DNA from: Bryoerythrophyllum caledonicum | Taxonomy: Eukaryota > Streptophyta > Bryopsida > Pottiales > Pottiaceae | Direction of reading: 5' to 3' | NCBI GenBank assembly: GCA_963971425.1 | Contig: OZ020519.1 | Span: 11,424,028 to 11,488,027, forward strand | DNA length: 64,000 bases | Part shown: piece after piece, positions 31,559 to 55,563 of the stretch | Layout: every line of letters starts with the position of its first letter | Position numbering within the stretch: position 1 is the first letter of the stretch | Notes under the pieces: model-generated | Database searches by the model: none | Seen by the model: only the letters and a program-made list of their open reading frames with translations | Told to the model about the DNA's origin: nothing | Translations under genes and position numbers: made by a program

Positions 31559-31838
31559 TTCCTGATTTCCAATTTTTGCCGACCCATTATGGCAACTGGT
31601 TTTTATATCATTCTTTTATATACATTCCAGGTGCATAGTACAATAGTTTCTATTGCAAATCGCTTTATGTTTGAGAGCCGTGTTCAGGTCCAACTTTTTA
31701 TTCTTATTAACCTGATTCTTGTTGCATATCCCTGAAGTTACTAACCATGGGTACAACAGCTGTGAAGTTATTTGGAAGCATTGGCCTCATATGATATACA
31801 TCAAAGTGGGTAATACTATTTTTGTGTGGGTCTCTTAA

Positions 31839-32755
31839 CCCCTAAATTTCTTTGACAATCTCACACAAAAAAAACTTCAAAAAATGCTTCAATGCGTAAG
31901 GAAGGAAACTTCAACTTTTGTTTCTAGTTTTAACTGTAGGATCTCAAATCTCAATTAAGACTTGTTTAGTAGCATTCTTACAAAATTTCTTCTACTTTGA
32001 CCACATGGATTGAAAGATTGCAGTGTTTGAAGTTTGACCATATGGTTTATTTTCTTCTCTGTGTTGAGTGGATCAGCAGACTTTGTCAAAGTTTTGCACT
32101 GCATAAGACCTAAATTCATTACCATCATGTCAAGCATGTTACTAGTTCCTTGTACACCAATGTTTAGAGGTAGAAAAGGGGTACAACATATTCAAAAAAA
32201 TTGTGCAAGAAGTGAAGGTTCAAAAAGTGCCAATTCATGTTTTACTTTTTTGTGAACTTGATAACTCAAACGGTTAATAAGAAGGTTTACACCACATCTG
32301 GTAGTAGAAAAAATAAAATGTAAAAAATACAAAGAACTTGAAATTTTTTGTGGAAAAGAAGTTTTTTGTACCTAACTTGAAAATGTGTGACAATGTGTGA
32401 AAATGTTTGATTTGGTGTAATATGTTTTTTTTCACCAAAGACAAGAAATGTTTTTTGACAGTATGAAAGGAAACATCATACCTTGCTAGTATTGGAAAAT
32501 CTCACATTTGATAGTGTTTTAGCAAAAGTTTTTGGCCTTGCCCAACAGTGCCGGCACTTGAGAAGTTTTTAAGATGGATTCATTTTTTTTCCAGAAGTCC
32601 AATAAGAATGAAATTATATTTTCATACACCTCTTTTCTTTTTAGTACACCAAGTTTGTACAAAATTTTGGAAATTGTAGATGTAAATTGCAACCTTGAGA
32701 ACATGCTTGAGATTTGCAAAAGTCCACTTCAAGACTTTTTCATTTAGAGGGAACC
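31839..32755 (-). repeat. Inverted relative of the 43013-43945 repeat
   Basis: Long stretches match the reverse complement of 43013-43945, such as 'gtggatcagcagactttg', 'agttccttgtacaccaa', 'aagaaggtttacaccacat' and 'aaaatctcacatt'. It is a diverged copy, outside the large transposon and about 11 kb from its partner. It is non-coding. Confidence 0.65.
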
Positions 32756-34981: not shown

Positions 34982-35017
34982 ATGTAACACGCAATTAAGC
35001 AATTATGCACTTAGCCA
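34982..35017 (+). repeat. Left TIR and target duplication of the large transposon
   Basis: ATGT (34982-34985) then the inverted repeat from 34986 to about 35017. The first 27 bases are identical to the reverse complement of the right end; the 28th differs (A/G) and GCCA follows in both. Confidence 0.8.
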
Positions 35018-35582
35018 AGTGCACTGGTTGGTGGTAGAAAGCCGCAAGTTATTTGCTCATAACTTTTTTTTAAATCAAAATTTGGCAAAAGTTTAGTATG
35101 TTTTTAGTCATTTTTTTTTGGTGTTTGTCGTATCATACATTGGCATCTTTATGCTCATATCAGTAATATTTTTTTTACATTCGCTACCTTTTTTTAGAAA
35201 ATATATGATTTCTACTTTAGTTTGCAAATCATGCTACAAAATTATGATCATGTGCCCAAAGAGATTATAAATGTGTTATGAGTTATTATAGGATTTTAGA
35301 GTACTGCACTACAAATACAATGTGTAAGAGATACAAAATATATATGCAAATTCCTAAGATAGTGTAAAGTACCTCACTGTATTTTATAATGCAAAAACAT
35401 ACATAATCAAGCAATTCCACACTATTGCTGAGGAATTCTAAAATCAAACATATCATATGGACCACCCAATATATAAATATATACCACCAACCGAACGATA
35501 GACACATCTCAAACTGCATAATACTAACGTACTTGCCACCTAAACTCCGTGCATGCTCTACTATAGTATATAGCTCCACGGC

Positions 35583-38500
35583 TCACAGCTCATCTGCTGG
35601 CGGAACGACTCCCTCCACGTGTCCAATGGCGCTACCTACCATAGCGGATAGTTCATGATCCTCCACTGGACAATCTCCCACATCTTCGATGCCAATGGAG
35701 GCACACTCAACAAATCGGTAATTGCCAGGAACACCCTCCCGCGTATGCCTTACCCTGTCATCATTATAGAAAAAGCCATCCTTTGCATTGAAGGACATCT
35801 CTCGCTCTGATGAGAAGGCCCCCTGAAATGCAATGATGTCCTCAGATACGCTAGATCTTGGAATGGGAGGCAAACCTGGTCCGGTATCACTCTGAGTACC
35901 TCCGAACGTCTCTTGTGTCTCCGATACAGGCTCTGATTGAGGAGGCATCGAAGGCTGTCGAATCCTCCTCTGAACCGAAAAAAATTCACATGAATCCAAT
36001 CCTTCTTCCTCCATCTCCAACCTAGGACCATCAAATGTACACCCCCGTCCTGCCCTTGCCGCCAAACTAACATCTACTACACCTGTATCTTCCATCCTCT
36101 CTGTAGGTGTTGCAGACGTCGCCCCTGAAGTATCTCCCACCGTCCGTTGTGTTGATGGAATTCTCTCTCCATCCTCATCGGCGTCTGAATCACTGCCAGA
36201 TGAAAAATCTTCAGTGGTACCTGAACGTGGCAATCTCTCATGTAAACCACCTCCATCCTCATTGTCCTCTTCATTCCTCACTCCACCAACCGCATCTTCG
36301 GTCTCAGGTACGATGTTGCAACCAGTACTTGTTCCACCAGTCCTGACCAACAATTGTCCTTGGAAATTGTCGGACAACTCATTGTATAGGAATGAAACTC
36401 TGTCTGTACAATCGTCAATGATGAAAACCTCAGATCCCTGGAAATCTCCTTCAAGGATCGTAGGAATGGCCGTAGATATGTTACACGCCACTAAACCCCA
36501 ACCACGGGGCAAGTATGAGCCCACTAGTCTTGCGAGCTCTGATGGAGATCTCTCAAGTGAATCAACTTCAGAGGGTTGGCGTGCCTCACTCCAGTGATCC
36601 AAGAATACAAGTGGAAGTGGAACGTCTCCAGAAACATAGTTCGGGCCAGGAGATGTACCCACAGGGTGCTGCATACAAATCACAACATCGCCAATCGGTT
36701 GTACTACTTGCTCCAGACGCCCATTCTCTGTAAAATCAAGAGCATAGGGATTAACCGAGTTGGGATCAAAAGCCCAGCATCCACGTCGCATAGTACATCC
36801 CTCTGGAAGCTTCACCTTCGTGAAAAACTCCTCATTGGCATACACAGCCGCTGGTAACAAGAAGATGACGTTCCATCGTTCAATATTTGCCATCCATAAT
36901 GTCAGCTGTGCAAAAGCTGCGGATAATTGGGCGTCTCCCCAATGACCATCTCCATGCCTCCCACCGCCACGTCGACAATCAATCACCCACAAACATGGTT
37001 TCCCCAACTCTATGTAGTCGGTGCGGAATAATCCTCTTCTACACCGAACCGGAAGAAGATTCTCTGTGTCGCTCTGGCCTGGCCTCTTGACTTCCATCTG
37101 CCATTCCCAATTAGCAGTAGCCAATTCTCCCACATCCACGGACAGTCCAATGTATCCACGCCCCCCTGCTGCAATGTCACCATAATGAAACCTGATGGAA
37201 GGGGGGATGAGGTAGCCTATGTCTTCCAGTTTAGACACCTTCCCCCGCACAGGAGCACTCCAAGCTTTTTTCGTGGCAGCATTCAAAAGCTTCCCAAAGG
37301 TATCAAGTTGTGCACTACTCCTCGGAAAATACTTCGCTACACGGATACGAAAGAACTCTTCCATGGAATCAGGTGTACTTTCCTTGTTCTCCACCATCAA
37401 CCAACGGATCGAATTCATCACAGCTTCTCGTCTCTGATATCGGTCAACCACACCGGCAATCGTACGAGGATGTGGATTCTTGTCTTTTACACCGTCGAAG
37501 TAATATGCTTGAGAAAGTCTTACTCCATCCTCCCTCACCGGCTTCGCTGCAGCAGACTTTGCCAACCGAAGATAATATGGATTCGGAACCCTACCTAGAG
37601 GCCTCAACCAATTCTGCGTCATCTCCTTTCTTGTTGGTCGTACGTCCACATTTGGATCCAGCTCTTTCTTCCTCGCCATGTCCTTCCACTTGTCCTCTTC
37701 CTCCTTGCTGTAAAAGAGAATGCCGTCTTCGTAGTCCTTGCATACTTGAATGATAGCTTCGAAGCAGTCATTGCTCGGATTCCATGCATGATTGGTCAGA
37801 TCCTCCATGTTTTTGGCCAACCTCTTCACCGTGACAACTCCATCCCCCTTGGGCAACTTATGCACTGCACTTGCCGCACTCACCAAAGCAACTGCCCTGC
37901 GTGCATCGTCCGCACGTAGTGTGCTATCAGGCCTCCCGTATAGATCCCAAATCTGACGGATCTTCCTCAAATCCTCCTCCATGGTAGAATATGAATGTCT
38001 CTGGAACTCCGCCACGTTGATCCGCGCAGACTTCTCAATGTAAAAGCGACGATCATCATACACCACAAAAGAGGCCTCCCGCCGTTCAAACGTGTCCAGA
38101 TACTCGTTTAAAGGCATAGTACCATCTCTCCACTGCTGTTGTGCAAACTTACAAGCTGCTACTATGTGTTGCCCATCCACCGGTTCCCAAATGATATGAT
38201 CTTGAAGCCAAGCATACTGGGATCCCATGGCACCCTGTGCAGAAGCACTCCCGTGTGCAATGAACATGCGCTCAAACTCTCGTGCGGTACCTACCAACGG
38301 AAATGGCAGCTCTTCCTTCTCAACGACACCATCATCGGTGGTAGTATGCACGATGTATCTGATCGGTTGAAGTACCAATCTACTCACCCGAGTCGCGGAT
38401 TCTGGGTCTCGTAAGCGGTTGAATACTTCTCTGACCCTCTTCTGTGATAAAACCCGGTGGTTGGTTTCCGGATTCTCTACAGAGACAATGCGGTCCATGT

Positions 38501-39527
38501 GTGCCATAAACACAAAATTCCCCCACACTGATCCTTTCGCAATCTCCTCTGTTGTAGGCACTGGTGCTTTTAAATTCATAGGAGTTGGAACATCCTGTGG
38601 TATCTCTGCATTGTCTTCAAAATCCTCTGGTATATTGTCTGGAAGGTTGTGAAAATCTTCTTCCTCCGGCGCCATGGCTGACAAATCAGCTGAATCTCCC
38701 GGTGTAGATGTAGGGGCCCTATGATGACCATCAGACGTCCTGAGCCCCGACCTAGGAATCCTGCCACCAGATCTTGCACTTCTCCCAATCAACCTCCTCC
38801 CACTTGGATCCAAACTTGATGGGCCTTCTCTTGAACCAGAAGCTACATCACTGTCAACACGTCGTGGCCTCTTCGTAGGACGTCTACTCGTTAATGGAGG
38901 ATTCGGTAATGTCTGTACCTCAGAAGTTGTGGTGGGATGTTGGCCTCCACTTCCTCTCCCCCCCTCCAGTGGTCGCCAATCCAGTTGCAACGGCTCAGCA
39001 AGAATTCGATAAACTTCTGTATCTTCTGGTTCCGTTGGTGGGGCTTGAGTTGTCGCACGTGATGGGTCCCTCTCCCGAAATGCTTCATATCTAATATGTT
39101 CCTCCATAATCTTCTTAGCCTTCAGCACCATCTCCGGTGATAACGCTAAACAGGCTAAGACGTTGTTGTGTCTAGCGGTACGTACCGCAAGAGAGATGTT
39201 CAACCAAAACGTCTGCAATGATTTGAGGAATTTCACCTGACCTGGATTTTGAAGAAGATTCAAAGGGACAGGTGCAAGAAGCAACTTCTTCGAAAGAGAA
39301 GTCTTCACCTCCGATTGACCTGGACCCACTGCGCAAGTAACGTATACCATATCATCACGTCGAAGAGTGATTGCCTGGATTTTGCCAAAACTCTTCCCCA
39401 ACGCCGATGTACGCTTCCCCAGCTCAAAGGGATAATCCGTCACCCATAAGAAGGCGCTCGACTCATCCACTTCCGCGATCCACCAGCCGTGGCTCTCCCA
39501 GATTCTATCAATATTTGGTGGTGCCAT
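35583..39527 (-). CDS. Transposon-encoded protein with ParB-like and degenerate DNA-methyltransferase-like regions
   Basis: An uninterrupted 1,314-aa ORF from ATG 39527 (frame open to 39608 but without another good start beyond ATG 39557). About residues 430-530 carry 'WEPVDGQHIVAACKFA' and 'FVVYDD', resembling the DGQHR-type core of ParB/Srx-like domains. About residues 780-1060 resemble a beta-class (N6A/N4C) methyltransferase in order: 'LWVIDCRRGGG' where a DPPY loop is expected, 'GDGHWGDAQLSAAFAQL', then 'SPSELARLVGSYLP', 'ACNISTAIPT' where FxGxG is expected, and 'EVFIIDD'. The key catalytic residues are replaced, so it is probably not an active methylase. The last 250 residues are acidic and disordered. 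This fold assignment is inference; no family was recognised directly. It lies inside the element, divergent to the transposase. Confidence 0.6.
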   Translation of the reverse strand: MAPPNIDRIWESHGWWIAEVDESSAFLWVTDYPFELGKRTSALGKSFGKIQAITLRRDDMVYVTCAVGPGQSEVKTSLSKKLLLAPVPLNLLQNPGQVKFLKSLQTFWLNISLAVRTARHNNVLACLALSPEMVLKAKKIMEEHIRYEAFRERDPSRATTQAPPTEPEDTEVYRILAEPLQLDWRPLEGGRGSGGQHPTTTSEVQTLPNPPLTSRRPTKRPRRVDSDVASGSREGPSSLDPSGRRLIGRSARSGGRIPRSGLRTSDGHHRAPTSTPGDSADLSAMAPEEEDFHNLPDNIPEDFEDNAEIPQDVPTPMNLKAPVPTTEEIAKGSVWGNFVFMAHMDRIVSVENPETNHRVLSQKRVREVFNRLRDPESATRVSRLVLQPIRYIVHTTTDDGVVEKEELPFPLVGTAREFERMFIAHGSASAQGAMGSQYAWLQDHIIWEPVDGQHIVAACKFAQQQWRDGTMPLNEYLDTFERREASFVVYDDRRFYIEKSARINVAEFQRHSYSTMEEDLRKIRQIWDLYGRPDSTLRADDARRAVALVSAASAVHKLPKGDGVVTVKRLAKNMEDLTNHAWNPSNDCFEAIIQVCKDYEDGILFYSKEEEDKWKDMARKKELDPNVDVRPTRKEMTQNWLRPLGRVPNPYYLRLAKSAAAKPVREDGVRLSQAYYFDGVKDKNPHPRTIAGVVDRYQRREAVMNSIRWLMVENKESTPDSMEEFFRIRVAKYFPRSSAQLDTFGKLLNAATKKAWSAPVRGKVSKLEDIGYLIPPSIRFHYGDIAAGGRGYIGLSVDVGELATANWEWQMEVKRPGQSDTENLLPVRCRRGLFRTDYIELGKPCLWVIDCRRGGGRHGDGHWGDAQLSAAFAQLTLWMANIERWNVIFLLPAAVYANEEFFTKVKLPEGCTMRRGCWAFDPNSVNPYALDFTENGRLEQVVQPIGDVVICMQHPVGTSPGPNYVSGDVPLPLVFLDHWSEARQPSEVDSLERSPSELARLVGSYLPRGWGLVACNISTAIPTILEGDFQGSEVFIIDDCTDRVSFLYNELSDNFQGQLLVRTGGTSTGCNIVPETEDAVGGVRNEEDNEDGGGLHERLPRSGTTEDFSSGSDSDADEDGERIPSTQRTVGDTSGATSATPTERMEDTGVVDVSLAARAGRGCTFDGPRLEMEEEGLDSCEFFSVQRRIRQPSMPPQSEPVSETQETFGGTQSDTGPGLPPIPRSSVSEDIIAFQGAFSSEREMSFNAKDGFFYNDDRVRHTREGVPGNYRFVECASIGIEDVGDCPVEDHELSAMVGSAIGHVEGVVPPADEL

Positions 39528-39598
39528 AACGCAACACTCAAAAAACCTGTATATCATTACAAAACGATAGTCACTATTAGTATGGAATAAGAATTTTT

Positions 39599-40860
39599 GA
39601 ACCTCCACTCATTGCACAACTTTTTTGAACATGCTACACCCCTTGTCTACCTCTAAAAACTTTTGCACCACAGAAGATCTAAATCCAATATCATCGTGTT
39701 AAGCATGTTGTTAGTTCTTTGGTGAAATAGCATATTAATCCAAGTCAATCATTTTCACACATTGTCACACATTTTCGAGGATAGTACCAAAAAACTTCTA
39801 CTTTTCCACATAAAACTTTGAGAACTTCGTATGATTCACTTTTGATTTTGCCTACAACATTATGCGATGTAAAACTTCTCATTGACCATTTGGATTCACA
39901 TTTCAAACGATATCAAGTTCAAAAAATAATATAACGTGAATTGAGAATTTTTGAACCTACACTCATTGCAATTTTTTGTTTAATATGCTACACCCCTTGT
40001 CTACCTCTAAAATCTTTTAAACTACACAAGATCTACATCCAATACCATCATGTTAAGCATGTTCTTGGTTCTTTGTCGAAATAGCATATTAATCCAAGTC
40101 AATCATTTTCACACATTGTCACACATTTTCGAGGAGAGTACCAAAAAACTTCTAGTTTTCCACATAAAACTTTGAGAACTTCGTATGATTCACTTTTGAT
40201 TTTGCCTACAACATTATGCGATGTAAAACTTCTCATTGACCATTTGGATTCTCATTTCAAACGATATCAAGTTCAAAAAAAAACATAACGTGACTTGGGA
40301 ATTTTTGAACCTCCACTCATTGCAATTTTTTGTTTAATATGCTACACCCCTTGTCTACCTCTAAAATCTTTTAAACTACACAAGATCTACATCCAATACC
40401 ATCATGTTAAGCATGTTCTTGGTTCTTTGTCGAAATAGCATATTAATCCAAGTCAATAATTTTCAATCATTGTCACTTATTTTTGAGGAGAGTACCAAAA
40501 AACTTCTACCTTTCCACATAAAACTTTGAGATCTTTGTTTGATTCACTTTTGATTTTTCCTACGGCATTATGTGATGTAAACCTTTGTATTGACCATTTG
40601 GATTCTCATTTCAAATGATGTGAAGTTCACAAAAAAACATAATGTGAATTGAGAATTTTTGAACCCCCACTCATTGCACAATTTTTTTGAATATGCTACA
40701 CTATTTTTCTAACTTTAAAAAATGGTATATAGCAAATTAACATCATCCTTAACATTGTGGTAATTAATTGAGACCTTTTATAGTGCAAAAATGTGACACC
40801 AATTGAAATCAAAGTCTGCTGATCCAGAAAACGCAGTGAAGAAAATGAGGCTTTTCACTA
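39599..40860. repeat. Tandem 354-bp repeats
   Basis: The marker 'gaacctccactcattgca' begins at 39599, 39953, 40307 and 40661, exactly 354 bp apart each time. Within each unit 'tgctacaccccttgtctacc' and 'gattcacttttgattttgcc' recur. The inner copies are nearly identical; the rightmost is more diverged. They start at the 5' end of the minus-strand ORF. A related diverged stretch is at about 43330-43800. Confidence 0.9.
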
Positions 40861-41239
40861 CTTCAAACATTATAATCTTTCAATCCGTGCGGTGAAAATT
40901 TATGAAATTTTGTGAGCATATTAATTAATAGGTAAGGATTAAGATCCTACGGTTAAAATGACCAAAAAAACTATAATTTGTCTTCCTTGCTAAATGCACT
41001 AAAACAAGCATTTTTTAAGATTTTGGGTTGAGATATTCTCAACATCATTTATGGACCAAGGTATATTGGGTATCAATAGCGAGGGTATCACCACCAGGGT
41101 ATGAGTTCATAGGTACCAATTCCAAGTTATCAACCGAGGTATCTAAGTCGGGTATCAATTAGGGTTTGCTACTAGGGTTTTGGAAATGTGGGTATCAATG
41201 GAGGATATCAATCCTTTGCAAAGTTGGGTAGTCCTACGA

Positions 41240-41563
41240 GGGGGTGTGCGCGCGCACACCCCTGGCAGTAGTTTGAGGGAGGCTGTGAGTGTTAGAGAGG
41301 GTTTGGAGGAGGGTTTGAGAGAAGGGCTTGAGAGGGTGAAGAGAATAGAGTTGTGAGGGAGAGGAATGGAGGGGAGTTGTGAGGGAGAGAAGTAGTGGGC
41401 GTCTAGGGTTTGGGAGAGAGAAGGAGAGAAGTTTGGGAGGTGTGAGAAATGCAAGCAATAGTTTGGGAGGTGTGAGATGAACATGTGAGAGTGATTGGGA
41501 GGTGTGAGAGATGGCGCCCGCGCCGCGCCGCGCCTTGGCGCTGCGCCCGGCAGCGAGCGCCCG
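41240..41563. repeat. Purine-rich low-complexity tract leading into a GC island
   Basis: 'gagagagggttt' and 'gggaggtgtgaga' blocks recur (the latter near 41431, 41463 and 41500), then the sequence turns very GC-rich ('gcgccgcgccgcgcc') just before the assembly gap. The ORFs that cross this tract and the gap are artefacts of composition. Confidence 0.6.
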
Positions 41564-41763
41564 NNNNNNNNNNNNNNNNNNNNNNNNNNNNNNNNNNNNN
41601 NNNNNNNNNNNNNNNNNNNNNNNNNNNNNNNNNNNNNNNNNNNNNNNNNNNNNNNNNNNNNNNNNNNNNNNNNNNNNNNNNNNNNNNNNNNNNNNNNNNN
41701 NNNNNNNNNNNNNNNNNNNNNNNNNNNNNNNNNNNNNNNNNNNNNNNNNNNNNNNNNNNNNNN
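41564..41763. other. Assembly gap of 200 N
   Basis: Exactly 200 N, so probably a fixed-size placeholder of unknown true length. The GC-rich left flank suggests a region hard to sequence. It lies within the large transposon, so the element's true length is uncertain. Confidence 0.99.
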
Positions 41764-41814
41764 CACCTCCAGTCCACGGTTACTCCATCAGGTGTCGCGT
41801 GAACTTCGTGGGAC

Positions 41815-41912
41815 CGGCGGCTGCGGCAGTTAGGGTTTAGTTGCGGCGGCTAGGTTTTGTGTGCGGCGACTAGGGTTTGGGTGCCTGGGTGTGGCGGCTA
41901 GGGTTTCAGGTT
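41815..41912. repeat. Short tandem 'ggcggctagggttt' repeats
   Basis: Four imperfect copies of 'ggcggctagggttt' follow the gap, with 'agggttt' resembling the plant telomere unit. Likely continues into the gap. Confidence 0.6.
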
Positions 41913-43012
41913 GTGCGGTGATGTGCCGTACTAAGGATTTAGTGCCATATTATTAACTTCACATTGACTTCAATTTGTATGGTGTTGGTGTAATTATTTC
42001 AGTTGAACGAAGGTTTAACTTACTAGTTCTTGACTGCTGTATGTGTATTCATTCAACGTTGCAATTTTGTACATACTGAAGTTGGTGTCCTCATTTGTGT
42101 ATTCAGAAATTGGTATTTACCTAACTCTATCGTAACTCTCACTGAGCTTCAATCATCATGTACCTATCCCTGAGTTCCCTCTATGCAGAATTGAAACAAA
42201 GTTAGAAGCTTACCAAATTCGCTATTATCTCCTCGATGGCAAATTTCCTTCAATCTACACAGTACACCAAGTTGACAGAAATTAGTGAATGGAGTAAAAA
42301 TGCACATGGCTTAAGGTTTTGAATGCAAGAGTGCTCACCTTAGAAACTGGGAAGAGAAATGACCTCCAGATTTGCATAGAAACCTTATATCCATGTTGGA
42401 ACCTTGTGCCTCAAGTTTACAAGTCAAAGTTTGACTTTTGAACTTTGGACCTTTTGCTTTGTTCCTCCTTATGTTTAAATTTTTTAAATATTTTATTAAA
42501 ATTTTGGGGTATATGTAATACGATGATACTTAGGAGGTTTTATTGCATAGTTTACCGTATAAATTTTATGCATGTGGTGCAGGTAAAGTGAGAAGGGTTA
42601 AAAAACATGTTCAACAACGACGGAATGGTGATTAAATGTTGAACGCCATCAAGCATCTGTGTGTATACCGCTAACACCTGCAACGTATCTTGAGGTAAAC
42701 ATTTATTTTTATACAAGTTTAAGATTGATTGTTGATTGATCTTCTATACTATGTTGTTTGTAGAATAACCTTTATGTGGATGTAGAAACTTTTTTGTTAT
42801 TAGCGATCGTAATAAGTTCCAATGGTGTCGGTAATAGCAAGTAGACAACATGGTTCATTTTCTTCCCTAAGTTCAGTGGATTCCCTTCGTTTCAGTTCAC
42901 TTGGATTCAAAAAATCGCATCACACATGATCTAGATTCGTTATCATCATGTCAAAAAAAGCCGCAAGTTCTATTTACACCAATGTTTAGGGATGCAGAAG
43001 AGGTGTAGCATA

Positions 43013-43945
43013 TTTAACCCCTAAAGGATCAAGTGTCCAAAATGGGCTTTTTGAAAGTTCGGTCAAGTTCCTATGGTGTCAATTTCCACCATTTCTCTTT
43101 GATCATTTTTCTAAAGAAAGGCATTACGAAGACTTTAGTGGGAAAACAATTTTTACCTAAATTGGACATTTGATCAAAACAATTAAGGGTTTTGAATTTC
43201 AAATGGGGAGAGTAGGCAAGTCGAGCACGTCCAAAAACTTTTGCTAAGACACTATGTTGAATGTGAGATTTTCAGTACTTGCAAGTAATATAATTTCCCT
43301 TGATGTTGTCAAAATAAGTTCTTGTTTTTGGCGAAAAATAGCATACCAACCCAAGTCAAACATTTCACACATTGTCAGTCGGTGTTGGACAAGGTACCAA
43401 AAAAACTTCTTGTTTTTCAATTAAAACCTAGATAATTTTTTATATTTCACTTTTTATTTTTTCCACAACATTATGTGGTGTAAACCTTCTTATTGACGAT
43501 TTGAATTACCAATCTAAAACATATTAAGTTCACAAAAAATGACACTGTGAATTAACAACTTCCAAACTTCCACTCTTTGCATAGTTGTTTTGAATATGCT
43601 GCACCCATTCTTTACCTCTGAAAATTGGTGTACAAGGAACTAACATCATGCTTAACAAGATGGTTATGGATTTAGACCTTCTGTACTGCAAAATATTGAC
43701 ACCAAGTGAAGTCAAAGTTTGCTGATCCACTGCATGCAGGGAACAAAATGAACCATTTGCTTGACTTCAAACACTATAATTTTTCAATCCGTGCGGTCAA
43801 AGTTTATTGAATAAGTCTTAATTGAGATTCTACGGTCAAAAGTAGAGATAAAAGTTTTTGTTTCTTTTTTTGTTCATTGCGCTGGAATCCAACAATTTTG
43901 AAGTGTTTTTGGTGTAAAACTGTCATTGTATCTTCAGGGTTAAAG
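43013..43945 (+). repeat. 930-bp repeat, possibly an inserted TIR element
   Basis: Starts 'tttaacccctaaaggatcaa' and ends with the complement of 'tttaaccctgaagata', so the ends are weakly inverted. It is the partner of the inverted copy at 31839-32755 and shares inner sequence with the 354-bp tandem repeats. It sits 217 bp upstream of the transposase start codon. Confidence 0.55.
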
Positions 43946-44161
43946 ACTCTGTGCAAGGAGTTCATGCTCTAAAAATTCTTAATTTTTTTATTTCAAACTT
44001 GATTCATCAAAAGGTCCAATATCATCTTCATATTTTGAACTGTAAATATGTGTTTAGAAACATATCTTTTATCAGATGAATGGTGCTTTAAAGGTTAACA
44101 ATTAGTACATGTATTTTGACTAATGTGCAGCCATAATGTTCCTATTTTTTGAATAGTGATA

Positions 44162-47100
44162 ATGGAGAGCCGCACGATTCAGACTCCTTCGATACGGCCA
44201 CACATCCAAAGGGATAATATGCTTTCCAATAGCTCTGTGGGGGCCCGATTAGTACGAGCAGCACGTGCAAGGCAAATTCAACAGAGATCTGTTGATATCA
44301 TGACATCTGAATTAGAAACGGTAGTAGAATTGCTTTCTGAGAGAGGAGATGTGGTGGGCTTAGCAACCAGGGAGCATGCATTGAAAAGTGGCATGGAGTT
44401 GAATGGGTCAAAGTTGTTCCCATTCGAGGTGGCGGTGCGTATCACTAGGGTGGATAATGCATTGCATTGGACCGGAGAGATTGTAGGAGAACGCCTTGGC
44501 ATGTGTGTGGGCTTGATGATTCGTTGGCATCGGTCTTTGCTACGTGTAGTGGTTATAGAACCCGATATCACAGGTGTCCATGGTGACATTGGATCACAGA
44601 TAGCGCCTACACAAGTGATGGCCACAGAATTTGATTTTCCTGAGTTTATCAACACATCAGGATCCACCCAGAGGTCTCGACGTAGTAGTCATGCTTCAAA
44701 CGCCATAGATGAAAATTCGCCGTTTTCCCAATCTACTCCCTCGAGTATCCAAGATTTGCCCCATGTAGATGGATTTGCTTATGTTAGACCAACACGTCGT
44801 CCATATTCTATGCAAAATAGGAGAAGGAGACATTCAAGGGAGCCATCATTGACAGAAGCTGCACCAGCTAAGGTATCGCTTAGAAGCGTGCAAATTGCAA
44901 TGGCACAAGGAGGATGCAAACGCAATTGTTTGAGGGACGTTCCAACAAGGTATCTATTGGACATGCGATATAATGCATGGGGTAATGAGTTTTCAGTTCG
45001 AAGTACGTGGATGAGACAGATGCTGGTTTCTTTTTACACAAGGACGGAAGGAACTCGTCGAGACAAGTTTGTAACAAAGTTAGATGGGAAAGAAGTTTGC
45101 AATGCTTGCTACGCTCTTGGGGTTGGATATTCACAGAGGCGCTTTAAGCAATTGAAGAAGGATTGTCTAATATATGGAAGAGTGACATCGATTCATGGCA
45201 ATACCCTTTCAGATCCGATAAGAGAGAGTACTAGAATGTCTGCAGCAGAGGCTTGCTTTAAATCGTTTGTCGATGAAGCTGGTTGTCCTCAACCTCATCG
45301 TTGTATTCGCCGTAAGAGTGACAACGAAGTGGTGCCTCTCATTCTCCTTCCTATGAATACAGCCAAATTTGATGTATTCAATTACGTGAACGAGGAGGTC
45401 AAGAGAATTTGTAATGGAGAAACCATTTCTATGAGTTCGTTTCGGAGGTTGTGGCGCATCAAGTATCCCCACGTTCAGGTACCTCCATTCTCGAGATTCT
45501 CAAAGTGTTATCATTGTTGGGAGTATAAATGTGCCATGGAAGGAACCACCAATGCGGATGCAAGGATAAAGATAAAGGAGTTGTTTATGTTGCATCTACG
45601 CAACCAGATGGAAGAACGTAGGCATTATTGGATATTCAAGAGGTCGTGTTATATTAGCCCTGAGTTGTACATGTGCATCATCGTGGATGGCATGGACCAA
45701 AACACGACCATGGTACCGAGGATGCGTCAGACTGTGAAGAATATTGAACACCGATTTGTGAAGACCCATCTGTGTGGTGCTCTTGTACATGGGATTGGTT
45801 TATATTGCGACGTGTGGTTCGGGGCTCACCACAAACACGATAGCAACCAAGTCGTAAGTACATTGTTGTACGTGATAGGAGATGTGCTGCGGAGGAGGAG
45901 CTTTTTGCCACCAACATTGCGGATTCAGGCCGACAACTGCACGCGTGAGAACAAAAACATTTATATGTTTGCTCTATGTGCTACATTGGTGGGATTGGGG
46001 TTTTTTCAGGAGGTGGAACTATCTTTTCTTATAGTGGGCCATATACACGAAGATATTGATCAACGCTTCAGTTGTATTTCAAATACGTTGAAGAGGTCGG
46101 ACGTGGATTCGTTGAAGGAAATGATGAGTCTTATAGAACAAGGAACATCCCCTACAGAGGCATTTGTTAGCGCCCGGCTGCTAGAGAATGTATGGGATTG
46201 GAAATTGTTTATAACTCCTCACTTACTGACAGGTCAGGATTCATTGGTGGACATAACATTTCCGCACCACATGCGATTCTATATGGACAATCGAGAAGGG
46301 ACTCGTGTGGTTCGAGTACAACACAAGCATTATTGCAAGGATCCATGGGGACCGGAGGCAGGGACGAAAACTTTGAGGTCGTTGCCAAGTAGGGATGAGC
46401 GACCAGCGTTTGCGGAAGTATTTGCAGCGGATGAACGGGAGTTGAAGGCGTTGGATGACTTCATTGTATATAAAGAAAGGTGCATCCAAAGGTTGCAGCA
46501 TGAGGACAAGAATCGTGAGGCAAAAGTAGAGGCTGAAAGATTGAAACTCTATTTAGCTGAATTTCCACACAAAAATCGTAGCAATGAGCATCGTTCCTCA
46601 CCGTTTTGGCCTTCAGAGTTCTCCAACACCGGACCTACAGGGAGCGCATCTTTGGATGTAATGGATGGTGCAAGTGAAGAAAATCGCGAGATAGATGTTG
46701 TAGAGCAGGTAGTGGCCATGCTTCCAAATGCCGAGGCTCGAGGATACTTTGGTCCTCGTAGAGGAAGACCCTCTAATCAAGCAGTGCGTAGGGCACAACA
46801 AACAGAGCGCAACTATGTTGAGGAACGCGCCGAAGAAGGAGCAATGTATGAAGGTAATCACGACCCATTTCCACCATTTAATCCACAATCTGATATCCAT
46901 TGTGGACAGTTTGTAGCCTTGAGTGTTGATCAAGCAGAGATAGAAGGCGGTGTATCATTCTATGTGGGAAAAGTGATTGAGGAAGGAAAAAACCGATGGA
47001 GACTTAAGATTAAGGTTTGTTGGTATTGGCCCATCATCCAAAGGGGGGTTGCTGATGGACATGGGTCTTCTGCACAACGCTATGCAAATTGCATGGATTC

Positions 47101-47353
47101 ATTCTGGGAGCCATCTGGGGAGAGCCATAGTTGGGTAGAGAAAGATTCATGCATTTTTTCATGGGTAGACACACTGGAAAGAACCATGTCTGGGGCGAGC
47201 GGGTGGAGAAAGCGCAATGTATTTGGAGTGCAAGTTGAAAGCAGGATTCGCATTCTTCAATCGGCAAAGGCTCACATCCTACAATATATTGCAATGCAAA
47301 CCGAAGCTATCGATGACGACCGTTTGCAAGCAGCCCTAAATTCTGTAGAGTAG
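44162..47353 (+). CDS. Transposase, RNase H-like (DDE) fold of DUF7869 type
   Basis: A single intronless ORF of 1,063 aa (ATG 44162; a GTG lies two codons earlier). About residues 290-345 contain 'KEVCNACYALGVGYSQRRFK', the N-terminal helix-turn-helix-like part usual for this family, and 'CYHCWEYKC' (about 449-458) could bind zinc. The catalytic core shows three acidic sites in order: 'CIIVDGMDQ' (about 507), 'RIQADNCTRENKN' (about 590) and 'VGHIHEDIDQRFS' (about 625-637), matching what I know of DUF7869 proteins in invertebrates, oomycetes and mosses. It would cut and join the inverted repeats of the element. The 3' ORF end is about 570 bp from the right terminus. No frame break. Whether it is active, or kept as a host gene, cannot be seen. 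Confidence 0.75.
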   Translation: MESRTIQTPSIRPHIQRDNMLSNSSVGARLVRAARARQIQQRSVDIMTSELETVVELLSERGDVVGLATREHALKSGMELNGSKLFPFEVAVRITRVDNALHWTGEIVGERLGMCVGLMIRWHRSLLRVVVIEPDITGVHGDIGSQIAPTQVMATEFDFPEFINTSGSTQRSRRSSHASNAIDENSPFSQSTPSSIQDLPHVDGFAYVRPTRRPYSMQNRRRRHSREPSLTEAAPAKVSLRSVQIAMAQGGCKRNCLRDVPTRYLLDMRYNAWGNEFSVRSTWMRQMLVSFYTRTEGTRRDKFVTKLDGKEVCNACYALGVGYSQRRFKQLKKDCLIYGRVTSIHGNTLSDPIRESTRMSAAEACFKSFVDEAGCPQPHRCIRRKSDNEVVPLILLPMNTAKFDVFNYVNEEVKRICNGETISMSSFRRLWRIKYPHVQVPPFSRFSKCYHCWEYKCAMEGTTNADARIKIKELFMLHLRNQMEERRHYWIFKRSCYISPELYMCIIVDGMDQNTTMVPRMRQTVKNIEHRFVKTHLCGALVHGIGLYCDVWFGAHHKHDSNQVVSTLLYVIGDVLRRRSFLPPTLRIQADNCTRENKNIYMFALCATLVGLGFFQEVELSFLIVGHIHEDIDQRFSCISNTLKRSDVDSLKEMMSLIEQGTSPTEAFVSARLLENVWDWKLFITPHLLTGQDSLVDITFPHHMRFYMDNREGTRVVRVQHKHYCKDPWGPEAGTKTLRSLPSRDERPAFAEVFAADERELKALDDFIVYKERCIQRLQHEDKNREAKVEAERLKLYLAEFPHKNRSNEHRSSPFWPSEFSNTGPTGSASLDVMDGASEENREIDVVEQVVAMLPNAEARGYFGPRRGRPSNQAVRRAQQTERNYVEERAEEGAMYEGNHDPFPPFNPQSDIHCGQFVALSVDQAEIEGGVSFYVGKVIEEGKNRWRLKIKVCWYWPIIQRGVADGHGSSAQRYANCMDSFWEPSGESHSWVEKDSCIFSWVDTLERTMSGASGWRKRNVFGVQVESRIRILQSAKAHILQYIAMQTEAIDDDRLQAALNSVE

Positions 47354-47926
47354 ATAGTGTGCCTTTATGAGAGTATACTAGTTGTGTATGGTAATTGATA
47401 TATAGTGTACGTGTAAGAGTAGTATATTCTAAGGGTGATGTAAGACGTTATGTCATTAATCCTATAGAGTAAAGGTAATTTTACTATTGGTGCTAAGTCC
47501 AGATGTAGAAGAATCTATATTTAATTTCCACCATTGTATGCATTATATACTACGTAGAATATCTTTTAATCAACTGCCAACCCTTGCATAAACTATGTTT
47601 TTCTGTGATTACGCCGGTTTGTATACTACAATCCTTCAAATCTATCTTTGAAATATTGTGAAACTATATTAAATACAGATTTATCTAGTATTAACGAGGG
47701 GCCACCAAAAATTAGTTGAAAATGCCAAAAAACCGCTTTCAATATTAACAACCATGATTGTACGTAATATTGTTGTAGAAGCTCAATTTTTTTTCTTTGG
47801 AAATCATTTTTTTTCATTGATTTTTTTTTTTTTTTTTGCAATTTTGCCACTTTTGTTCGCAATGGCCGCCGTTGTACCCAAGTGCACTTTTATATGGCCA
47901 AGTGCATAATTGCTTAATTGCGTGTT
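47354..47926. other. 3' flank of the transposase gene and right TIR
   Basis: AT-rich sequence with a T run at 47820-47838, then the right inverted repeat (about 47895-47926), followed by the ATGT duplicate at 47927-47930. No other coding capacity. Confidence 0.6.
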
Positions 47927-48909
47927 ATGTATGGTATTGTATCTCAACATGATAAGGTTTAGATTTTGAAATGACCTCCAAATGAAAGATGTTAGTTGAA
48001 GATTCTTTAATCCAAAGGTGTATGTCTTGCTAAACTTTGATACGTTTTTAATACTCTACAGAGCAAAATACGTGCCTTTATATACAGTTCTCAAATGACG
48101 TTTAAGGATTTAAGGTCTAATGGAGACAATATATACGGTCACATATTTTTATTCCTAGAATACAAAACATGTATTAAAATTAAGTACGATCATTTTAATA
48201 TCTGAACCTCATCATGTTCAAATATGGCACCATACATGTAGAATGCATGACCATTTTTCCACTTCTCAAATATATAGTAGGTGCAATAATGATCTAAATT
48301 TGAAATGCCATGTGTCATTGGATTGGGCTCAACACAAATACAAATTTTTATAACTCCTACATACATTCTTACAACTTGTATGTCCAATATACAAGAAAAT
48401 ATCATATTGCAACCCAAATTTGGCTCCTTAGACCTACAAGAGTTAAACATATCTCTTGTGGTGCACTTATAATATTAGCTATCAATTGTACATAGGTCTA
48501 AATTGGAATCATAGGGTAGTAGATAAGAAAAGAGAGAAGAAAGACAAGGAGCCTACCTAAAAGAGAAAACCGTGGACTTTATCAAATTACCCCAAGTTCT
48601 TCTTATGATCAATTTTAGTTGAAGATGACCTATAGTAGAATAGTTGACCTATCATCAACTCAATTGTTTCCATAATTTTCCATCATTGCAAAGGCAACAA
48701 TTTTCTTAACTAGTGAATGTTATATAGGACTCGTATCAACAGAAAAGAGTATTTTTTTAATTTTAATATGTATGTAGATGTGATGATAGAGAGTTGTGTA
48801 TCTCATAGGACATGCTTCATCTTCACCACATATGATTCTAAACCATTGTAGGCCATATCTTGCCTCTTGGGGACCTTTGAGAGCTGAGATAGGTTCCTAA
48901 GTATTCAAT

Positions 48910-53165: not shown

Positions 53166-55563
53166 ATGGGGGTGAGCGGGAGGGCGGCGTTGGTGGCGAC
53201 GAAATGGGTGGGGTTGGCGGCGGCCATCTGGGTGCAGGCGTCGGGGGGGAACGCCTACATGTTTGCTTTCTACTCGCCGTCGCTCAAGTCCGTGCTGCAC
53301 TACAACCAGCTGCAGCTCAACAACCTCGGCGTGGCCAAGGACATCGGCGAGAATGTGGGCCTCCTCGCCGGCCTCCTCTGCAACAAGATCCCCGCCTGGA
53401 CCCTCCTCTGCATCGGCGCGCTCTTGGGCTTCCTCGGCTACGGCATGCTCTGGCTCGTCGTCAGCGGCCAACTCGCGCCGCTGCCTTACTGGCAGGTGCG
53501 CAATTCTGGTAGATTAGGGTTTGGCGCTCATCGTAGGGTTTGGCGCTCATCGTAGGGTTTGGCGCTCACGAGCTTTGGTTGTTTAGTGTTTGGTGCTGAT
53601 TGTCACAGATGTTGGTGATTCAGTGTTTTTGGTGCTGATTTTAGGGTTTGGCGCTCACGAGTGTTGTTTTTTTTGTTTCACAGATGTTGGTGATTCAGTG
53701 CATTGGCAGTAACTCCACGACATGGTTCAACACGGCAGTCTTAGTGACGTGCATGAGGAACTTTCCGCACTCGCGCGGCAGTGTCGTGGGCATCCTCAAG
53801 GGCTTCGTGGGGCTGAGCGCGGCGATCTTCACGCAGATCTACACGGCTCTGCTCACCGACAACGCGAACCTGCTGCTTCTCTTCCTGGCGGTTGGCCCGG
53901 CCGCTGTCTGCCTGGCGTCCATGCTCTTCGTCCGCCCTGTCCCCGCCGTGGGAAGCGAGGTCCGCGACCCGGAGGAGCGCCGCAACTTCCACTACGTGTA
54001 CGCGGTGTGCGTCGCGCTCGCGGCGTACCTCCTCGCCACAAACCTTGCCGAGGAGCTCGTGCAGATGAATCGCTTCGTCCCCGTCGTGCTCACCGCCGTC
54101 ATGGTCGTCTTCCTGCTCGCGCCCCTCGCCATCCCCATCAAAGCGCTCGCCGAAGAATGCTACGGCGGAGCACCGGAGAGCGATTCCGCCCAAGAGCCAC
54201 TCCTCAAGGAAACAACCACCTCCCAAACCAACGCGCCATCGATCATCAGAGAAGAAAACACAAGGTCCATCGAAGACGACGTAAGGTCCGTCGAAGACGA
54301 TACAAGGTCTATAGACGACGATACAAGGTCCATAGACGACGATACAAGGTCCATAGACGACGATCTAAGGTCCATAGAAGACGATACAAGATCCATAGAG
54401 GATGATTCAAGGCCTGAGCCTTTGGATCATGCTGAGAAAGGGAAGAAGAAGGTGACGCTGGCTGCAGATGTGATTAGGAGGCTGACTCGACGCGAGGAGG
54501 ATGCGGAGACGCTGCTGGTGGTGGGAGAGGGCGCGGTGAAGCGGCCAAAGCGGCGGCGGCCGAGGCGCGGCGAGGACTTCAATCTCCGGCAGGCGCTCGT
54601 GAAGGCGGATTTCTGGCTTCTGTTTCTGACGTTCTTTTGTGGAGTGGGCACTGGCGTCACTGCTATCAACAACTTGGGGCAGATCGGGGAGGCGCAGGGC
54701 TATGACAATGTTAACATCTTCGTCTCGTTGATCAGCATCGCCAACTTCCTGGGGCGCCTCGGCGGCGGGTCCCTGTCGGAGCATTACATCAGGTATGACC
54801 AGAGCTCTGTCTGTGAAGTCACCTGAAGTTTTAGTAAGATAACCCTCTCATACTACTACTCTTTCCTCATTCTCCATAGCTATTAGATCAATGGAAGAGC
54901 TTGGTAGTTTCTCAGCTTGAAAAGAAAGAAGGAGAGGTCCATGAATCTCAACCGCCTTTCTCCTCTTTGAGCTGATATTTGGAGCTACTCAGGCTGAGAA
55001 AACAGGTCAAAACTCATGGTATCTTTACCTCACTGTACTGTGATGTTACAAACCTGTTGTCTGGTTGCAGGACGGATGCGATTCCAAGGACGGTGTGGCT
55101 AGCCATAGCTCAAGTGGTCCTCATCTTCGTGCACCTGATGTTCGCCTCGGCACTGCCCGGAACGCTCTACCTGGGCTCCATCCTGCTCGGCCTCTGCTAC
55201 GGCGTGCACTTTTCCATCATGGTGCCCACGGCCTCCGAGCTCTTCGGGCTGAAGCACTTCGGCATGATCTACAACTTCCTCACCATCGCCAGCCCGCTGG
55301 GCTCGTTCCTGTTCTCCGGGCTCATCGCCGGCTACCTGTACGACCAGGAGGCCGCCAAAGACTCCTCCGGATCCCATCTCCTGGCGAAGGAGGTTTGTAA
55401 CGGGGCGCATTGCTTTCGCCTCACGTTTTATGTCATGGCGGGTGTGGCGGCGTTCGGGGTGCTGTTGACGACGTTGTTGACGTATCGGATACGACGCGTT
55501 TACTCTGCGCTGTACAGGAAGAGTCCTCACCCCTCTGCTTCCGACTTGAAGTCGCTAGAATAA
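53166..55563 (+). CDS. Nodulin-like / NFD4-type major facilitator transporter
   Basis: Exons 53166-53495, 53684-54792 and 55071-55563 join in phase, 643 aa. The N-terminal half is the plant 'nodulin-like' domain ('KWVGLAAAIWVQASGGNAYMFAFYS', split here as KWVGLAAAIWVQ and ASGGNAYMFAFYS), with helices to about residue 285. Then comes a long cytosolic loop, then the second helix bundle ('FWLLFLTFFCGVGTGVTAINN', read as FWLLFLTFFCGVG and TGVTAINN; 'GRLGGGSLSEHY'). About 12 membrane segments are expected. The family includes poorly characterised plasma-membrane or tonoplast transporters; the substrate is unknown. The loop carries seven heptads of the RSIEDD/RSIDDD type (54262-54411). Intron 1 has 'tagggtttggcgctcatcg' tandem copies; intron 2 has a SINE-like copy. 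Confidence 0.9.
53514..53578 (+). repeat. 20-bp tandem repeat in NFD4-like intron 1
   Basis: Three consecutive copies of 'tagggtttggcgctcatcg' or '...cacgag' type, with one more at about 53641-53660 in the same intron. Confidence 0.8.
54262..54411 (+). repeat. In-frame 21-bp tandem repeat coding acidic heptads
   Basis: Seven units encode (T/V/L)RS(I/V)(E/D)DD in the cytosolic loop of the transporter; the middle three are nearly identical at DNA level ('aaggtccatagacgacgat'). Since 21 bp keeps the frame, copy number can change without breaking the protein. Confidence 0.9.
54855..55037 (+). repeat. Intronic SINE-like repeat, copy 4
   Basis: In intron 2 of the NFD4-like gene: 'ctctttcctcattctccata', 'gatcaatggaagagcttgg', 'gaggtccatgaatctcaacc' and end 'actcatggtatctttacctc'. 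Same strand as the gene. Confidence 0.7.

Follow-up and report, generated by a model that had tools for sequence, protein, structure and literature searches.

Positions 34986-47926 of the window (the whole 64,000-nucleotide stretch of Bryoerythrophyllum caledonicum DNA analyzed here) are a complete DNA transposon of 12.9 kb that carries a probable transposase gene (ORF2) and a gene for a ParB/methyltransferase-like protein (ORF1). It is multicopy and most likely a recently active, autonomous cut-and-paste transposon, and linkage across its relatives supports that the two genes move together. The methyltransferase-like half of ORF1 lacks both catalytic motifs of its class, and the protein probably works by binding DNA. 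The features are as follows.

34982-34985, unstranded: target-site duplication ATGT, left copy (letters read)
34986-35017, + strand: left terminal inverted repeat, 32 bp (end comparison)
35583-39527, - strand: ORF1, ParB-like/pseudo-methyltransferase partner, 1314 aa from the likely ATG
36327-37094, - strand: amino-methyltransferase-like domain, ORF1 residues 839-1094, catalytic motifs lost
37929-38573, - strand: ParB-like region, ORF1 residues 346-560 (motifs and predicted secondary structure)
39590-40701, unstranded: array of 3.1 tandem 354-bp units, upstream of ORF1 (repeat analysis)
41160-41906, unstranded: GC-rich island in the center, carrying six TAGGGTTT boxes (41564-41763 are N)
43200-43960, unstranded: diverged relative of the 354-bp repeat unit, on the upstream side of ORF2 (repeat analysis)
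44162-47353, + strand: ORF2, probable transposase of the DUF7869 kind, 1063 aa counted from the likely ATG
45752-46303, + strand: DUF7869 domain, ORF2 residues 533-716 (E 2.7e-49)
47895-47926, - strand: right terminal inverted repeat, 32 bp (end comparison)
47927-47930, unstranded: target-site duplication ATGT, right copy (letters read)

A sequence-only reading of this DNA had described inverted ends of about 32 bp (27 exact), flanked on both sides by ATGT, and two long intact ORFs reading outward, all of which our analysis bore out. The terminal repeats are identical at 31 of 32 bases, the first 27 exactly, and by our estimate about 5e-9 inverted pairs of 27 bases are expected by chance in 14 kb. 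Their length falls inside the range of 11-1124 bp reported for Sola elements in the available part of PMC10741241 (the papers cited here by PMC number were available as excerpts). The two ORFs are uninterrupted and divergent, pointing outward from a 4.5-kb center. ORF1 lies in an open frame of 1341 codons (35583-39608, - strand) and ORF2 in one of 1065 codons (44156-47353, + strand); their likely start codons, at 39527 and 44162, were judged by homologue starts.

The genome (437 Mb) was searched for copies. With the 72-base left end, at least 40 matches at 99-100% were obtained (one is that of the window), 40 of the 1061 candidates having been scored. Ten copies were taken from the 39 other left-end matches, and this sample is biased to young copies because nearly all were chosen with a perfect end. 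A matching right end was present in nine of the ten, delimiting elements of 9.0-13.9 kb; the tenth, c17 (on C10), showed no right end within the 20 kb examined. Both ORFs were whole in three of the ten (c21, c25 and c27), besides the window.

Target-site duplications were read in 16 insertions with both ends, comprising the window, the nine sampled copies and six further copies picked for having a listed left end and a listed ORF2. The duplication was an exact 4 bp in 14 of them (ATGT, CTTT, TGTT, GTAT, CTAT, GTAT, TTGT, TGTA, TAGG, TTAC, ACAA, CTAG, CATA and AAAC); the others were CAGAT (5 bp) in c9 and ACAT plus one extra base in c15. The joined flanks of ten insertions were searched for empty sites, which the sequence-only reading had named as support. 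Those of c23 matched a clean paralogous empty site (84.6% over 500 ungapped columns). Repeats matched across the junction for c25, gapped matches at about 70 and 77% were obtained for c19 and c21, and weak matches for c11 and the window; the joined flanks of c9, c13, c15 and c27 gave no match. The paired ends and duplications of the other copies rule out a chance likeness between the ends of two unrelated elements.

Linkage of the two genes was examined in the best 35 of 2006 candidate ORF1 loci and the best 43 of 4310 candidate ORF2 loci. Among the loci listed there are at least 16 head-to-head pairs with the ORFs 3.8-6.1 kb apart, and a left end is listed 599-602 bp from ORF1 at 20 of the 35 ORF1 loci. 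Loci unpaired in these listings were probed with neighboring 900-base stretches, leaving out three on short contigs (C561, C864 and C753). ORF1 was found in the expected orientation by 20 of 25 ORF2 probes, and ORF2 by nine of 18 ORF1 probes; of the remaining ORF1 probes, two met each other's ORF1 and seven were without ORF2. Counting the window as well, pairing was established for 36 of 41 ORF2 loci and for 25 of 34 ORF1 loci among these best-scoring ones. The reported frame was free of stops in 34 of the 43 ORF2 matches and 18 of the 35 ORF1 matches listed, and both frames were stop-free in 12 of the 16 listed pairs. This linkage rules out the ORFs as independent host genes.

A second family was reached by searching with a distant ORF1 relative, at loci whose frame spans roughly 1355 codons. 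An ORF2 relative lay beside ORF1 in the same arrangement in all six probes. Identity was 78-82% in five of them; in the sixth the ORF2 match was split into three segments, of 71, 72 and 95%, that do not all share a frame. One second-family ORF1 was read from end to end, and it shares 65% identity with that of the window. The ends of this family read AACATGCAATTAAGC.../...GCTTAATTGCATGTT, and 4-bp duplications (TTAT and GGTG) flank both copies examined. The two genes, far from occurring separately or away from the ends, are linked in both families, and the sequence-only proposal of further copies with the same ends, 4-bp duplications and both genes is substantiated.

ORF1 and ORF2 are under purifying selection. 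Comparison of copies selected for intact frames put the dN/dS of ORF1 at 0.28-0.36 across six pairs. For ORF2, eight of ten pairs fell at 0.21-0.25; the values of 0.50 and 0.56 came from the two most similar pairs and are based on 28 and 6 changes. Between the families, ORF1 is most constrained in its ParB-like (0.21) and methyltransferase-like (0.22, residues 831-1095) domains. The N-terminal and middle parts follow at 0.27, then the tail at 0.42 and the linker at 0.69. Selection therefore maintains the ORF1 protein in two families of one genome.

ORF2 is a probable transposase. An RNase H fold is predicted for its DUF7869 region; candidates for the acidic residues are D593 and D633/D635, along with D511, which just precedes the domain. 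Its homologues include DUF7869 relatives from oysters and a lancelet. A PDB sequence search returned nothing for ORF2 alone and one weak match for its alignment (E 1.1), and DUF7869 is absent from the open-licence literature searched.

ORF1 alone had no Pfam, PHROG or NCBIfam match. Eleven aligned ORF1-type proteins gave seven single weak Pfam matches (best E 0.1) and six PHROG matches, the best to an unnamed family (E 0.0018); no TET/JBP dioxygenase domain was named among the Pfam results for the single protein or the alignment, and a PDB sequence search found nothing for either. The relatives found for ORF1 are all unnamed or hypothetical proteins. One scan each of IMG/VR and GTDB with short peptide patterns, which distant relatives could escape, gave 28 and 32 pattern matches and no tblastn relative.

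Predicted structure and motif comparison place one ORF1 domain in the amino-methyltransferase fold. This domain took all the matches listed in a PDB structure search with ORF1, leaving ParB matches no place. A Foldseek search with the whole ORF1 model gave large-rmsd matches to phage proteins, one of them named ParB/Sulfiredoxin (rmsd 32.6). The ParB-like region contains the boxes NPETNHR and WEPVDGQH; the arginine of box II (GxxR) is absent, the box reading GQHI or GQHV in all those sequences, 16 of 18, where it was found.

Active N4/N6 amino-methyltransferases are characterized by [DNS]PP[YFW] as motif IV and D.F.G.G as the SAM-binding motif I. Canonical motif IV was present in none of 18 ORF1-type proteins, DCRR replacing DPPY in all 16 sequences that cover the site. 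Canonical motif I was present in none of the 13 with the motif-I stretch found, which have ACNISTAI or variants instead; the lone match to the pattern, found in P0043, is placed 119 residues ahead of the DCRR of that protein, an unexpected position for this class. Because both catalytic motifs are missing, ORF1 is probably no modifying enzyme, and this apparent loss of catalysis favors DNA binding over modification. The sequence-only reading of a transposase with a ParB/methyltransferase-like partner thus holds for a multicopy plant transposon with linked genes, and gives way where its methyltransferase half is concerned.

The noncoding DNA beside the genes varies among copies. The window and c25 have three units in the 354-bp array; c11, c19 and c27 have two, and c9, c13, c15, c21 and c23 a single one. 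The diverged unit on the ORF2 side was found in eight of nine copies. The 354-bp repeat is also present outside the element. Between the repeats, the GC-rich island is a candidate bidirectional promoter. Besides its six TAGGGTTT boxes, three to eight occur in the central island of each of nine other copies, and the raw count on that strand across the whole window, which has no chance baseline, is 20. An Rfam search gave no match at the gathering threshold.

We lean toward an autonomous Sola1-like element, most likely so assigned, in which an inactive ORF1 binds element DNA and counters silencing or aids transposition. The two genes would be driven from the shared central region, and the integrase-like RNase H fold of ORF2 would cut at the inverted ends and insert with a 4-bp stagger. 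ORF1, whose ancestry is probably a prokaryote-type ParB-methyltransferase fusion, would since have lost catalysis. Most likely it binds the element's own DNA, perhaps at the noncoding repeats beside each gene or at the ends, and this binding would keep the element expressed against silencing, as VANC does, or help assemble the transposition complex. The VANC-like reading of the tandem repeats is weakened because the 354-bp repeat is also found outside the element.

A more specific form of this idea is that the dead fusion is a sequence-specific binder that shields copies or loads the transposase, making a second, independent VANC-like system with the invariant DCRR as a new working part; we regard this only as a tentative possibility.

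Harbinger and Spm are two-protein transposons. ORF1 could likewise be indispensable for transposition, as a subunit that binds the ends or builds the complex, rather than an anti-silencing factor. The pairing at 36 of 41 ORF2 loci and in all six second-family probes, the purifying selection on both genes and the conserved divergent arrangement are in keeping with such a role. However, DUF7869 relatives occur in oysters and a lancelet, whereas those found for ORF1 are all unnamed or hypothetical proteins; this is a hint, though no proof, that transposases of this lineage can work without ORF1. We consider a required partner a minority possibility, behind the Sola1-like element with a DNA-binding ORF1.

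An active DNA methyltransferase with unusual motifs, one that would mark element DNA with 4mC or 6mA in the way suggested for the Ectocarpus protein described below, is improbable: none of 18 proteins has canonical motif IV, the 16 that cover the site all read DCRR, and motif I is canonical in none of the 13 where its stretch was found. That ORF1 is a passively captured hitch-hiker of no benefit to the element is very improbable, in view of the dN/dS of about 0.3 when young copies are compared and of 0.21-0.22 for the two folded domains when the families are, the 18 of 35 listed ORF1 matches without stops, and the retention of ORF1 in two families despite a 35% protein difference.

The pairing of a ParB/methyltransferase gene with a transposase is not wholly new. 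In the available part of PMC12477816 (2025), Sola1-1_Ec32 of the brown alga Ectocarpus is described with a transposase and a ParB-like/amino-methyltransferase gene, the methyltransferase being predicted to make 4mC or 6mA, and further green and red algal cases of the transposon-borne pair are cited. By description, both elements are large DNA transposons with the ParB/methyltransferase gene on the strand opposite the transposase. The Ectocarpus protein has 1104 aa in an element of 21.5 kb, compared with 1314 aa and 12.9 kb here, and the present element differs by description in its lost catalytic motifs, plant host and many young copies. Sola elements have DDD transposases and 4-bp duplications, with the moss Physcomitrella among their hosts (PMC10741241, PMC9033089, in excerpt); the 4-bp duplications, inverted ends and large size range found here resemble them by description.

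Other systems share single traits, as far as the excerpts describe them. The VANDAL transposons of Arabidopsis, with their VANC anti-silencing proteins, are comparable in that a DNA transposon of a plant carries a protein other than the transposase together with variable noncoding tandem repeats, the VANC targets being fast-changing repeats of this sort (PMC10398659; by description). Fungal TET/JBP transposons also carry an accessory gene from a DNA-modification family, but it encodes a dioxygenase and not a methyltransferase-like protein, the transposase superfamilies are others, and the duplications are of 2, 3, 6, 7 and 8 bp (PMC12730594). Retrotransposons with captured C5 DNMTs, which have charophytes among their hosts, likewise join a mobile element to a DNA-methylation gene, but they are retrotransposons with a C5 enzyme whose catalysis was demonstrated (PMC5890265). 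Prokaryotic and phage ParB-N6/N4-methyltransferase fusions join a ParB-like fold to an amino-methyltransferase (PMC12704722) and are the probable ancestry of ORF1; relative to them, box II GxxR, whose arginine is important in the ParB nucleotide-binding fold, has become GQHI/V here, and DPPY has become DCRR.

The sequence-only reading knew of no described plant element with this pair. The brown-algal case removes the novelty of the pair as such; no land-plant case was found in the open-licence literature, and the algal papers cited by PMC12477816 might hold one. The available parts of PMC10294476 and PMC7466625 contain no case of this kind. Within the literature searched, the land-plant occurrence, the conserved loss of catalysis and the scale appear to be new. 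The element extends the hosts of transposon-borne ParB-methyltransferase proteins from the algae reported so far to a streptophyte plant, and suggests that a methyltransferase is used here as a binding protein, not an enzyme. Its many young copies with both frames open form a natural test system for accessory proteins in plant transposon spread.

A LEAFY domain (SAM_LFY, E 1.3e-27) was present in the host genome and in none of 14 control genomes; together with the genes around the element it points to a streptophyte, probably one of the land plants. The ORFs flanking the element in the window match the Piezo, Nodulin-like/MFS, Rubisco LSMT, CGL160 and lipase families.

Pairwise comparison of the window copy and three other genomic copies of the element in which both ORFs are whole (c21, c25 and c27) gave a synonymous divergence of 0.03-0.06 for ORF1, the ParB-like/pseudo-methyltransferase partner, versus 0.11-0.15 for ORF2, the probable DUF7869 transposase, in five of the six pairs. 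The central regions were not alike from copy to copy. This unequal divergence, together with the differing central regions, makes it seem that the two halves of the element have been swapped between subfamilies. Elsewhere in the genome (G000 C8:4434811-4446275), two ORF1 copies lie in opposite orientation, 3.4 kb apart, possibly representing nested or rearranged elements.

Probes of family 2 (L084-L089), a second element family with the same head-to-head gene pair, that derive from different large contigs showed mutual identity of up to 99.9% over 3 kb. This similarity suggests that transposition of family 2 is very recent or current.

An inverted repeat with 48-bp arms (79%; window 47927-48237) starts exactly at the element's right duplication, so the edge of a small inverted-repeat element may be where the insertion lies. 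A repeat of ~700 bp outside the element (window 31830-32546) shares 69% identity with the noncoding repeat upstream of ORF2, and some element copies are flanked by its relatives. The telo-box-like motif TAGGGTTT is clustered in the central island of the element (window 41160-41906), and is also carried by a 19-bp tandem array immediately ahead of the Nodulin-like gene (window 53515-53642).
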